Shown here: one piece after another, positions 42,625-54,254 of the stretch
How the letters are laid out: each line of letters opens with the position of its first letter
Numbering within the stretch: position 1 is the first letter of the stretch
Assembly (NCBI RefSeq): GCF_030143255.1
Contig: NZ_JARJNR010000003.1
Coordinates: 248,001-312,000 of the forward strand
From: Frigidibacter sp. SD6-1
GTDB lineage: Bacteria; Pseudomonadota; Alphaproteobacteria; Rhodobacterales; Rhodobacteraceae
Direction of reading: 5' to 3'
Length of the DNA stretch: 64,000 bases
The notes under the pieces: model-generated
The model's input: the letters and a program-made list of their open reading frames with translations, nothing else
The model's database searches: none
What the model was told of the DNA's origin: nothing
Translations under genes and position numbers: made by a program

Positions 42625-43530
42625 ATGCATCTCGACTTCCGTCATCTGCGCACGATCAAGGCGATCCACGAGGCGGGCGGCATGGCGCGCGCGGCCGAGG
42701 TCTTGAACATCACCCAGTCCGCCCTCAGCCATCAGATGAAGGGGCTGGAGGATCAGGCGGGGGTGGAATTGTTCGTCCGCCGCTCGAAGCCATTGAAACT
42801 GTCACCCGCGGGGCAGCGGCTGTTGCGCGCCGCCGACCGGATCCTGCCCGAGGTCGAGGCTCTGGCCGAGGAGTTCCGGGCGCTTCGCATGGGCCGCACC
42901 GGGCGGCTGCATATCACGCTCGAGTGCCATGCCTGTTACGACTGGCTATTCCCGGTGCTGGAACAGTTCCGCCATGCCTGGCCGGAGGTCGATGTCGATA
43001 TCCGCCCCGGCCTCGCCTTCGACGCCATGCCCGCGCTCAGGCGCGAGGAGGTCGATCTGGTGATCACCTCCGACCCCGTGAAGCTGGACGAGGTGATCTT
43101 TCATCCGCTCTTTGACTATCAGCCGACGCTGATTGCCGCGGCCCAGAACCCGATTGCGGCGAAGCCTTTCGTCGAGGCCGAGGATTTCCGCGATCAGGTG
43201 GTGATCACCTATCCGGTCGACCGGTCGCGGCTGGATATTTTCACCACGCTCCTCACGCCCGCACGGGTGGAGCCGCGCGCACACCGGCAGGTGGAACTGA
43301 CGGCGGTGATCCTGATGCTGGTTGCCTCGGACCGCGGCGTCTCGGTCCTGCCGGACTGGGTACTGCGCGAGGTGAAGTACCAGCCCGACTATGTCACGCG
43401 CCCGATTGGCAAAAACGGCATCACGAAGCGCATGTATGCCGCGACCCGGGGCGAGGATGCGACCCAGCCCTATATGGCGCATTTTCTCAAACTCGCCCGG
43501 TCAGAGCCGGTGAAGCTGCAAAGGGGTTGA
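42625..43530 (+). CDS. metR: LysR-family regulator, MetR-like
   Basis: The 301-residue protein has the LysR N-terminal helix-turn-helix (IHEAGGMARAAEVLNITQSALSHQ) and a periplasmic-binding-protein-like effector domain (TLECHACYDWLFPVLEQFRH, VVITYPVDRSRLDIF). The CHACYDWL stretch is typical of MetR, which responds to homocysteine. Its divergence from metF supports the name. It probably activates metF and represses itself. Confidence 0.88.
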   Translation: MHLDFRHLRTIKAIHEAGGMARAAEVLNITQSALSHQMKGLEDQAGVELFVRRSKPLKLSPAGQRLLRAADRILPEVEALAEEFRALRMGRTGRLHITLECHACYDWLFPVLEQFRHAWPEVDVDIRPGLAFDAMPALRREEVDLVITSDPVKLDEVIFHPLFDYQPTLIAAAQNPIAAKPFVEAEDFRDQVVITYPVDRSRLDIFTTLLTPARVEPRAHRQVELTAVILMLVASDRGVSVLPDWVLREVKYQPDYVTRPIGKNGITKRMYAATRGEDATQPYMAHFLKLARSEPVKLQRG

Positions 43531-43578
43531 CCGGCGCGGCGTCTCGGGCATGATCGCACGGAACGAAATGGGTCTGCC

Positions 43579-43647
43579 GTGAAAACCATCTTCACCCGAG
43601 AACGCCGCCCCGGCCCTGTGTCTGCCCTGCTGTTGAAGCAGGGCTGA
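43579..43647 (+). CDS. 22-residue leader peptide upstream of the ABC-F gene
   Basis: A GTG-started frame encodes 22 residues beginning MKTIFTRERR and ending VSALLLKQG-stop. Its last seven codons form the first arm, loop and second arm of a perfect hairpin. The stop is 71 bases before the ABC-F start. The start context is weak. Short peptides of this kind control ABC-F genes by ribosome stalling in Firmicutes; the same is inferred here, not shown. Confidence 0.5.
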   Translation: MKTIFTRERRPGPVSALLLKQG

Positions 43648-43713
43648 CCGGAGGCTTCATCCCAAGGTCCGCCCTTTCCGGCGCCGATTGCGCCTTTTCT
43701 GATTTGCGGACCT
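43624..43713 (+). promoter_or_regulatory. Attenuator with nested hairpins before the ABC-F gene
   Basis: Three structures are visible. GCCCTGCT/AGCAGGGC (43624-43644, GTTGA loop) lies in the leader peptide end. GGCGC/GCGCC (43680-43694) is followed by TTTTCT and resembles a short intrinsic terminator. AGGTCCGC (43665-43672) pairs with GCGGACCT (43706-43713) around it and would cover the region just before the ABC-F start codon at 43719. Confidence 0.6.
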
Positions 43714-43718
43714 GACCC

Positions 43719-45233
43719 ATGAGCCTTCTTGCCGTCAAAGACCTCTCGCTGACCCTTGGCGAGCCCCTTTTCACCGATCTTTCCTTCACCCTGCAGCCCG
43801 GCGACCGGCTGGGACTGGTGGCCGCGAACGGGCGCGGCAAATCCTCGCTTCTGAAGCTGATTGCCGGGGCGATTGAACCGACCTCGGGCGACATCACGCG
43901 CGCCCGCGGGTTGAAGATCGGCCATGTGGCGCAGGATGTGCCGACGGCGCTGATGGCCCTGACCTTCCGCGATGCCGTGCTGGAGGCGCTGGAGCCTGAG
44001 GCGCGGGACTATGAAAGCTGGCGGGCCGATGTGCTGATGGACGATCTGGCGGTGCCGGAACCCTTCCGCGAACAGCCGCTGGGCGGTCTGTCCGGTGGCT
44101 GGCAGCGCACGGCGCTTCTGGCGCGGGCGGCAGTGCAGGAGCCGGATATCTACCTTCTGGACGAGCCGACGAACCATCTGGATCTTGGCCGGATCGGCAA
44201 GCTCACCGACTGGCTTGCCGGATTGCCCCGCACGGTCGGCGTGATCGCGGCCAGCCATGACCGGGCGTTTCTGGACGAGGCGACGGGGCGGACGCTTTTC
44301 CTGCGCGCCGCCGCGAGCCGGTTCTTCGCGCTGTCCTATGGTCCGGCGCGGGCGGCTCTGGCCGAAGCCGATCAGGCCGATGCCCGCACCTATGACAACC
44401 GGATGAAGGAGGCGGAGCAGCTCAGAAAGCAGGCGGCGAAGCTGAAGAATATCGGGATCAATTCCGGCAGCGATCTTCTGGTGGTCAAGACCAGGCAGCT
44501 GAAGGAACGGGCCGAGAAGATCGAAGAGGCGGCGCGCCCTGCCCATCAGGAAAGGTCGGCGGGTGCGATCCGGCTGGCGAATGCGGGCACCCATGCCAAG
44601 GCGCTGATCGCCCTGAATGACGCGTGGGTCCGCACGCCGGACGGGCGCGAGCTGTTCCGGACCGGCGAGACATGGATCGAACGCGGCGACCGAGTGGTGC
44701 TGCTGGGACCGAACGGCGCGGGCAAGACGCGGATGATCGAGGCGGTGCGGGCGGCCTGTCTGGGTGCAGACAGCCCGATCCGCGCGGCGGCGACGCTGGT
44801 GCTTGGCCACAGCGATCAGGGTCTGGCGCATCTGCCCGACGGCGCCACGCCCTTTGACCTGATCACCCGTTTCGATGTGGGCGATCAGGCGGCGCGGACG
44901 CTTCTGGCGGGGGCGGGCATCAGGCCGGACCGGCAGGGCGCGAAGGTGGCGACGCTCTCGGGCGGGCAGAAGGCGCGGCTCGCCATGCTGGTCCTCAGGC
45001 TGACGCGCCCGAACTTCTATCTGCTCGACGAACCCACCAACCATCTGGACATCGAGGGGCAGGAGGCCCTGGAGGCCGAACTGATGGCGCAGGGCGCGAC
45101 CTGCCTGCTGGTCAGCCACGACCGGCAGTTCGTGCGCAACGTTGGCACCCGGTTCTGGCAGATCGACAGGAAGCGGCTGATCGAGGTCGACGACCCCGAA
45201 CCCTTCTTCGATACCGCCCGTGCTGCGGGGTGA
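43719..45233 (+). CDS. ABC-F family ATPase
   Basis: The 504-residue cytoplasmic protein has two ABC domains joined by a charged linker and no membrane part, the ABC-F architecture of translation factors that act at the ribosomal E site. Walker A motifs are NGRGKSSLLK (near 42) and GPNGAGKTRM (near 331); signature motifs are LGGLSGGWQ and TLSGGQKARLA; Walker B lines are YLLDEPTNHLDL and YLLDEPTNHLDI. The linker MKEAEQLRKQAAKL carries the charged arm. No classical SD is visible, which fits control by the upstream attenuator. Whether it gives antibiotic resistance or is a housekeeping Uup/EttA relative is open. Confidence 0.9.
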   Translation: MSLLAVKDLSLTLGEPLFTDLSFTLQPGDRLGLVAANGRGKSSLLKLIAGAIEPTSGDITRARGLKIGHVAQDVPTALMALTFRDAVLEALEPEARDYESWRADVLMDDLAVPEPFREQPLGGLSGGWQRTALLARAAVQEPDIYLLDEPTNHLDLGRIGKLTDWLAGLPRTVGVIAASHDRAFLDEATGRTLFLRAAASRFFALSYGPARAALAEADQADARTYDNRMKEAEQLRKQAAKLKNIGINSGSDLLVVKTRQLKERAEKIEEAARPAHQERSAGAIRLANAGTHAKALIALNDAWVRTPDGRELFRTGETWIERGDRVVLLGPNGAGKTRMIEAVRAACLGADSPIRAAATLVLGHSDQGLAHLPDGATPFDLITRFDVGDQAARTLLAGAGIRPDRQGAKVATLSGGQKARLAMLVLRLTRPNFYLLDEPTNHLDIEGQEALEAELMAQGATCLLVSHDRQFVRNVGTRFWQIDRKRLIEVDDPEPFFDTARAAG

Positions 45234-54168: not shown

Positions 54169-54254
54169 GCCCGCGTGGTGAAATGGTAGACACAGGGGAC
54201 TTAAAATCCCTAGGCCGGAAGGTCGTGCCGGTTCAAGTCCGGCCGCGGGCACCA
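54169..54254 (+). tRNA. tRNA-Leu (anticodon UAA)
   Basis: An 86-base class II tRNA with GCCCGCG/CGCGGGC acceptor arms, anticodon loop CTTAAAA (UAA at the centre), a long variable arm and GTTCAAGTC T-loop. The CCA end is encoded. It reads UUA and UUG. An antisense open frame over it is an artifact. Confidence 0.96.

Follow-up and report, generated by a model that had tools for sequence, protein, structure and literature searches.

A conserved Gly-Pro leader peptide and competing RNA helices predicted to control an ABC-F gene in alphaproteobacteria

Does the 188-nt spacer ahead of an ABC-F gene in Frigidibacter sp. SD6-1 sense the state of the ribosome, and if so by what mechanism would it control the gene? 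The spacer lies in a window of 64,000 nucleotides, this being the whole stretch of DNA analysed. A MetR-like LysR gene (42625-43530) ends directly before the spacer on its upstream side, and on its downstream side lies the presumed regulated gene, encoding an ABC-F ATPase of 504 aa (43719..45233, + strand) in which ABC_tran was matched in two stretches. The closest named relative found is Frigidibacter sp. RF13 (Rhodobacterales), whose ABC-F is 95% identical. In Gram-positive bacteria, leaders that sense the ribosome have been characterised for ABC-F genes (PMC10201436 and others). An earlier note on this DNA had proposed that the ABC-F gene is controlled by a ribosome-sensing leader peptide with competing hairpins, and this proposal is well supported by the conservation and covariation described below. 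The spacer probably contains a ribosome-mediated attenuator, most likely a translational one, controlling the ABC-F ribosome-associated ATPase.

A sigma-70-type promoter for the leader, TTGACC-16-CATGAT, was predicted by a consensus scan at 43527..43554 on the + strand. Scanning 42900-44000 gave one such promoter-like pair against 0.1 expected in shuffles, and TTGA[CT] was found no more than 70 nt upstream of the short upstream frame (uORF) in 26 of 66 leaders, about 9.7 being expected from DNA further upstream. Transcription would start near 43561, leaving about 18 nt ahead of the leader's GTG. The region 43531-43740 folded better than its shuffles (z -5.4, with 0/200 as good), a high score which is partly due to the contribution of an upstream inverted repeat. 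This repeat is long and imperfect (43531-43613) and overlaps both the promoter prediction and the first part of the uORF. No obvious Shine-Dalgarno sequence was seen before either the uORF or the ABC-F gene in the window.

The leader peptide is encoded at 43579..43647 (+ strand, GTG start; MKTIFTRERRPGPVSALLLKQG; peptide (V/M)KTIFTRERRPGPVSALLLKQG). This 22-codon frame is where the earlier note had placed it and it is kept as a conserved leader peptide in orthologs. The upstream regions of 78 ortholog ABC-F loci were searched and 77 were assessable; these loci count one genome twice (L002 and L031) and contain several Brucella near-duplicates. L061 was left out as not assessable, being at a contig edge with its leader sitting on a separate contig, L167. 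A short frame with the motif Gly-Pro-x-x-Ala or a near variant was present at 72 of the 77 assessable loci, and removal of identical windows (L031, L037, L038, L039 and L048) reduced these 72 leaders to 67 distinct ones. L094, where the ABC-F start is unclear, was excluded from all structure counts, and L037, L038, L039 and L048 were also excluded from the sets of 66 leaders used in the helix permutation, inner-hairpin, masked-folding and unconfined strand-4 tests.

The conserved core of the peptide, as judged from the 67 leaders, is formed by the Gly-Pro-Val codons at 43612..43620 (+ strand), the presumed stall region. Gly was kept in 64/67 distinct leaders (exceptions L035, L077 and L104) and Pro in 65/67 (exceptions L005 and L102), while the residue following them was Val in 45/67, Arg in 13 and Asp in 5. 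All four synonyms were used for the Gly codon (GGC 39, GGT 13, GGA 8, GGG 4), and on an ABC-F tree of 49 leaves the Gly position had undergone at least 13 codon changes against at least 2 amino-acid changes. Mean diversity at codon positions 1, 2 and 3 was 0.31, 0.43 and 0.61 over codons -4 to +2. An ATG or GTG was found 9-13 codons upstream of Gly in 63/67 distinct leaders and the position of the uORF stop after Gly-Pro was free, ranging from 7 to 20 codons. A Shine-Dalgarno-like sequence preceded the uORF in 51/66 leaders, the window itself being without one. Comparison of the leaders shows protein-level selection at Gly-Pro and a near-constant length of peptide up to it, and these comparative signs indicate that the short uORF upstream of the ABC-F gene is translated. 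The earlier note had named the LLLKQG end of the peptide for checking. The conservation lies mainly in the preceding R-x-x-G-P-[V/D/R] instead, the LLLKQG end being largely encoded by the hairpin strands.

Arg and His are abundant ahead of Gly-Pro, with the register of Arg being variable (R at -3 in 40/67 and at -2 in 10/67). The macrolide stalling motif is +x+. It was not adopted as a general stall signal, R/K-x-R/K being found directly before Gly in only 16/67. Translational coupling was also rejected, given that the uORF stop lies a variable 57-172 nt before the ABC-F start; in two repeat-carrying leaders the distance is about 300 nt.

The uORF had been described as ending inside a perfect 8-bp hairpin. 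The hairpin exists, its 5' arm, strand 1 (GCCCTGCT, 43624..43631), lying in the last codons of the uORF and its 3' arm, strand 2 (AGCAGGGC, 43637..43644), following on the same + strand, but the stop codon at 43645-43647 comes directly after the hairpin. The Ala codon two codons past the Val position is GCC in 67/67 leaders and always begins 12 nt from the first nucleotide of the Gly codon (67/67); the next codon is CTG or CCG/CCA. The Ala codon is frozen as GCC because it is one arm of the hairpin. Taking strand 2 as the best among the positions tried, 7/7 positions of strand 1 were paired in all 70 leaders that differ from one another over the stretch up to the ABC-F start. In alignment A1, which has 64 rows, hairpin 1:2 had 94.2% of its cells paired against at most 49.4% in slid controls, and 65 cells were changed on both sides against 20.4 in shuffles. 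Shuffle, swap and permutation tests do not remove relatedness, and tree counts were added for that reason: at pair 5 the tree requires at least 8 independent switches between T-A and C-G, and the pair was formed in 49/49. Covariation of the stems in relatives, which the earlier note had named as a check, is seen as compensated changes in hairpin 1:2, with permutation support for the two helices described next. The overlap of hairpin 1:2 with the last codons of the uORF would place it such that a stalled ribosome covers strand 1.

Two further helices can be formed by a strand 3 (AGGTCCGCCC, 43665..43674, + strand), identified by pairing and permutation. In one of them, helix 2:3, the part of strand 3 at 43666-43674 (+ strand, GGTCCGCCC) pairs with an extension of strand 2 at 43641..43649 (+ strand, GGGCTGACC) found by counts on alignment A2 and by permutation. 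In the other, helix 3:4, strand 3 pairs with strand 4 (GCGGACCT, 43706..43713, + strand), which occupies -13 to -6 from the ABC-F start. The latter corresponds to the 8-bp pairing of 43665-43672 with 43706-43713 seen in the earlier note, and between its end and the ABC-F start at 43719 there are indeed 5 nt. In alignment A2, which has 51 rows, helix 2:3 had 88.6% of its cells paired against at most 54.4% when slid. When each leader's own partner was compared with permuted partners, strand 3 being placed by a fixed consensus, pair 8 was kept in 56/66 leaders against 41.3, pair 5 in 37 against 25.1 and pair 9 in 50 against 44.6, the remaining pairs hardly varying. The mean duplex energy of helix 3:4 was -12.6 kcal/mol with own partners and -10.3 kcal/mol with swapped ones, and that of helix 2:3 was -15.4 against -14.3 kcal/mol, with 0/2000 permutations as low in either case; the effect is one of averages only, as the own partner had a median rank of 9/66 for 3:4 and 20/66 for 2:3. 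In an unconfined search the first nucleotide of the best strand 4 had a median position of -13 relative to the ABC-F start, and it fell within -25 to -5 in 49/66 leaders against 17.6 expected. In only 45/66 was the pairing of strand 3 stronger ahead of the ABC-F start than within the first codons of the gene. RNAalifold run on the 51 rows of A2 recovered hairpin 1:2 alone and neither 2:3 nor 3:4, because these two helices compete and their spacing varies, and they were assessed by anchored permutation instead. The comparisons show 2:3 and 3:4 to be mutually exclusive helices sharing strand 3, with strand 4 just upstream of the ABC-F start.

The above arrangement suggests the following mechanism. 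During normal translation of the leader, hairpin 1:2 would form and strand 3 would pair with strand 4, closing the ribosome-binding region of the ABC-F gene. A ribosome stalled at Gly-Pro would cover strand 1 so that strand 2 could pair with strand 3, and with helix 2:3 formed strand 4 would be left free and the ABC-F translated. More tentatively, the ribosome may stall because an antibiotic has bound at the peptidyl transferase centre or in the exit tunnel, and the ABC-F might then protect against that antibiotic.

The mechanism was examined by computed folding of the leaders. In the free RNA (n=66) the mean probabilities were 0.93 for 1:2, 0.11 for 2:3 and 0.42 for 3:4. Masking the RNA as far as 18 nt beyond the first nucleotide of the Gly codon, which mimics a ribosome with Pro in the P site, raised 2:3 at equilibrium from 0.11 to 0.48 and lowered 3:4 from 0.42 to 0.28 (n=66), although 3:4 dropped by more than 0.3 in only 15/66. 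The accessibility of the region before the ABC-F start showed a small gain, from 0.35 to 0.44 (n=66). An earlier, crude accessibility test had been weak, with a mean gain of 0.063 against 0.026 in shuffles (p 0.007) and a gain above 0.15 in 15/70. The RNA of the window itself did not switch at equilibrium, 2:3 remaining at 0.00 when masked, the 3:4 stem persisting and the computed accessibility not changing. When strand 4 was omitted as not yet transcribed, masking lifted the mean of 2:3 from 0.18 to 0.81, with values above 0.5 in 60/66 leaders, and in the window RNA it lifted 2:3 from 0.00 to 0.89. Given that the window switches in computed folding only without strand 4, the switch is best read as acting during transcription, by co-transcriptional folding.

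The distribution of the leader was examined with a covariance model, R1, built from the leaders and run on samples of genomes from the family (394), class (385) and phylum (299). The Frigidibacter genome contained one strong match, the window leader (E 7.8e-15, this leader being among the rows from which the model was built), with the next best at E 0.011. In the family sample an ABC-F ortholog (E 1e-120) was present in 45/394 genomes and all 45 had the leader; strong leaders (E <=2.3e-7) were present in 46 genomes, the 45 and G306. In G306 (L164, 828-2030) an intact leader stands before an ABC-F gene with an internal stop, a deletion and a frame change, and the leader here outlives its gene. 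In the class sample the ABC-F (E 1e-110) was found in 14/385 genomes, 12 of the 14 having the leader, and a thirteenth strong leader, in G667, precedes an ABC-F cut by the contig end. Re-finding leaders in the family and class samples is no test, as they come mostly from the genomes used to build the model; since this is so, the actual test is that no other gene had a strong match. The phylum sample gave 17 strong leaders in 299 genomes, all in the class of the window. Four of the 17 had been used in the model; the 13 that had not each had the ABC-F directly downstream in the stretch fetched. In one of these 13, G835 (L162, 1712-2860), the leader is intact and the ABC-F is about 90 residues short internally relative to the window protein, either through deletion or through assembly. 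Weak matches were put down to chance; there were 18 of them in the family (E 3.9e-5 to 7.8e-4), 3 in the class and 4 in the phylum. Three of the weak family matches were antisense over a true leader and one that was looked at, L165, was without an ABC-F; all seven from the class and phylum were looked at, two having weak ABC-type matches and five none.

Matches span ten families by handle label and the leader is present in Rhodobacterales as well as in Rhizobiales/Hyphomicrobiales records. The earlier note had held that a case in an alphaproteobacterium would be unusual; the leader is not an isolated oddity. The ABC-F is also present on 12 plasmid records (H1-H12), and the leader peptide could be read in the five that were fetched (L183-L187). 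Six of the 12 plasmid records were typed as conjugative, and the records include Sinorhizobium meliloti pSymA and Ketogulonicigenium vulgare. The leader was absent at 5/77 assessable ortholog loci (L033, L034, L046, L098 and L109). Three of these, L033, L034 and L046, are MAGs which keep a promoter-like TTGACG and an open ABC-F frame and have no leader peptide, TTGACG lying about 100 nt from the ABC-F start against 169 in L032. It looks as though the leader peptide and the strands were lost from them by deletion, which is reminiscent of the constitutive leader-deletion alleles of inducible resistance genes. In L038 and L039 (environmental Brucella/Rhizobiales) the leader is about 144 nt longer than in relatives, apparently because a short repeat was inserted downstream of hairpin 1:2 and ahead of where strand 3 usually lies, and the uORF is intact. 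In the Brucella cytisi and B. oryzae records (L048 and L049) the ABC-F frame appears frameshifted, by sequencing error or decay.

The ABC-F protein itself has two ABC domains joined by a helical linker, as required of an antibiotic resistance (ARE) ABC-F. The best NCBIfam model was ribo_prot_ABC_F with 277.3 bits against a cut-off of 380, and among the best 25 of 187 NCBIfam matches the specific ARE models were far below their cut-offs. In the AlphaFold model (mean pLDDT 89.8) the linker consists of two long helices (207-249 and 252-275) with a very short tip, and the linker-tip stretch LRxQAAKLKNIGxNSGSDLL is highly conserved in 53 orthologs. Structure matches included VgaL and VmlR2 (Z 33.7), VgaA (32.6), EttA (32.0) and PoxtA (31.9); fold similarity, as judged from the model, does not separate resistance from housekeeping ABC-Fs. 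Patchy presence within genera has been used as a criterion for AREs (PMC6723617), and presence in 45/394 genomes together with plasmid copies fits a resistance-type ABC-F. The genome has further ABC-F-like frames elsewhere, of 609 and 617 codons with two matching stretches each. PADLOC matches were set aside, as they look like general ATPase-domain matches.

The output of the leader could be at the level of transcription rather than translation. The earlier note had pointed to a short GC stem followed by TTTTCT, and this terminator-like element, an inner 5-bp GC hairpin at 43680..43694 (+ strand), is indeed present and was recovered by the consensus scan too. Given that the inner GC hairpin occurs in 55/66 leaders and that Firmicutes ABC-F genes use terminators (VmlR, PMC9226507; CplR, PMC10201436), the stem and U-run might terminate transcription unless a drug-stalled ribosome relieves it. 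This is very unlikely to be how the leader works. A U-rich tail follows in just 13/66 leaders, the U-run is already gone in the 95%-identical ortholog L002, the window is without a U-run after strand 4, and in the window the stem is clear of both 2:3 (43641-43649/43666-43674) and 3:4 (43665-43672/43706-43713). Since the inner hairpin shares no position with either alternative helix, it would not come under the control of the conserved switch, and the drug-relieved termination suggested in the earlier note is not well supported: a terminator was rejected as the main mechanism, with U-tracts missing and the stem compatible with both folds. An attenuator of the VmlR kind was likewise rejected, neither a conserved intrinsic terminator nor an antiterminator exclusive with the terminator being found. 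That the conserved switch reaches to just ahead of the ABC-F start argues for attenuation of translation, and the layout fits the ermC type of translational attenuation better than a drug-relieved terminator. A variant of this is possible, though rather unlikely, in which 3:4 closes ABC-F translation and Rho then ends the untranslated mRNA, leaving the output mostly at transcript level; the same leader logic is found in the Gram-negative E. coli toiL-topAI, where control has been proposed to end in Rho-dependent termination (PMC12121999). Translational and transcriptional attenuation act jointly in CplR (PMC10201436), and a terminator or Rho may contribute in some species as a dual mechanism.

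The cause of the stall may also be other than a drug. Gly-Pro could be slow by itself, the leader stalling when the ABC-F or EF-P is scarce and so giving drug-free autocontrol. RAPP, RGPP and SecM-type RAGP stall ribosomes drug-free (PMC12992588), a role in carrying ribosomes through proline-rich stretches has been proposed for ABCFs (PMC11381351) and all the strong leader matches looked at stand before this ABC-F, yet patchy presence and carriage on plasmids are unlike a housekeeping factor and the Arg register varies between -3 and -2 as given above, so that such self-monitoring seems unlikely. A further proposal, likewise unlikely, treats the R-x-x-G-P-[V/D/R] leader as a new arrest peptide that is freed from its stall by its own ABC-F, drugs acting only by deepening the stall. 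The leader would then gauge ABC-F activity on Gly-Pro nascent chains that are hard to translate, and if true there would be a feedback loop in which the ABC-F reads out its own ribosomal substrate. Stalling for want of charged Arg, His or Pro tRNA would suit the Arg- and His-rich peptides before Gly-Pro, but there is no conserved run of a single codon, the conserved Gly-Pro has free codon choice and the ABC-F is neither a biosynthetic nor a tRNA-charging gene, making amino-acid attenuation highly improbable. That the spacer, which folds strongly in the window, is a mere structured 5' UTR or a chance feature of GC-rich DNA is scarcely credible with third codon positions free at Gly and Pro, compensated changes in the hairpin and, in each genome, a single strong match that goes with a single gene.

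The ermC attenuator follows a four-strand logic with an ermCL peptide of sequence other than R-x-x-G-P-V, and msrD also has a leader peptide. The alternative helices 2:3 and 3:4 sharing strand 3, which characterise the ermC type, were found in the present leader. As here, ermCL is a short peptide at which a stall re-pairs the mRNA, exposing the Shine-Dalgarno of the main gene (PMC10219788); ermC/ermCL differs in controlling a methyltransferase whereas the present leader would control an ABC-F, and in alphaproteobacteria. The msrD leader of streptococci likewise regulates expression of an ABC-F, in response to macrolides (PMC10314930), but both its peptide and its lineage differ from those described here. 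The CplR, VmlR, VmlR2 and LsaA leaders of Gram-positive bacteria also place a uORF before an ABC-F, these uORFs being minimal with the consensus sequences MR[I/M], MIN, MK[L/Q] and MAGN (PMC10201436). In contrast the leader here has about 20 codons with a conserved motif at approximately residues 10-14, and its terminator is unconserved. The toiL uORF of E. coli topAI-yjhQ is Gram-negative too and stalled ribosomes, produced by several drug classes, open a ribosome-binding site; it is set apart in regulating a toxin-antitoxin system (PMC12121999), unlike the ABC-F here. The arrest core of the RAPP/RGPP peptides is Gly-Pro or Ala-Pro after Arg (PMC12992588), and Gly-Pro is shared by the present leader. 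Membership of the RAPP/RGPP peptides was rejected, with GPP in 0/67 leaders and Arg directly before Gly-Pro in only 18/67.

Rfam release 15 gave no gathering-score match in the leader, and a focused Rfam search with E up to 1 returned mir-638 alone, on the other strand (E 0.97, 21.8 bits against 87). A tRNA gene at 54169-54251 is the sole Rfam gathering-score match in the window. No prior description of the leader was found in the literature searched, which consisted of the main text of journal papers, for the most part ones free of subscription. Within that scope the attenuator logic is known, and what is new is the motif of the peptide, the lineage and how tightly the leader goes with this ABC-F clade.

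The leader belongs to a large and well-defined alphaproteobacterial family, with a peptide longer and more conserved than the minimal leaders of Gram-positive bacteria. With its distance from the start nearly constant, Gly-Pro offers a ready-made context for stalling, and the cause of the stall could name the substrate of this ABC-F clade. Follow-up of the uORF consensus against the resistance spectrum of ABC-Fs has been called for (PMC10201436). The natural losses of the leader and the copies on plasmids bear on the evolution and movement of inducible ribosome protection.
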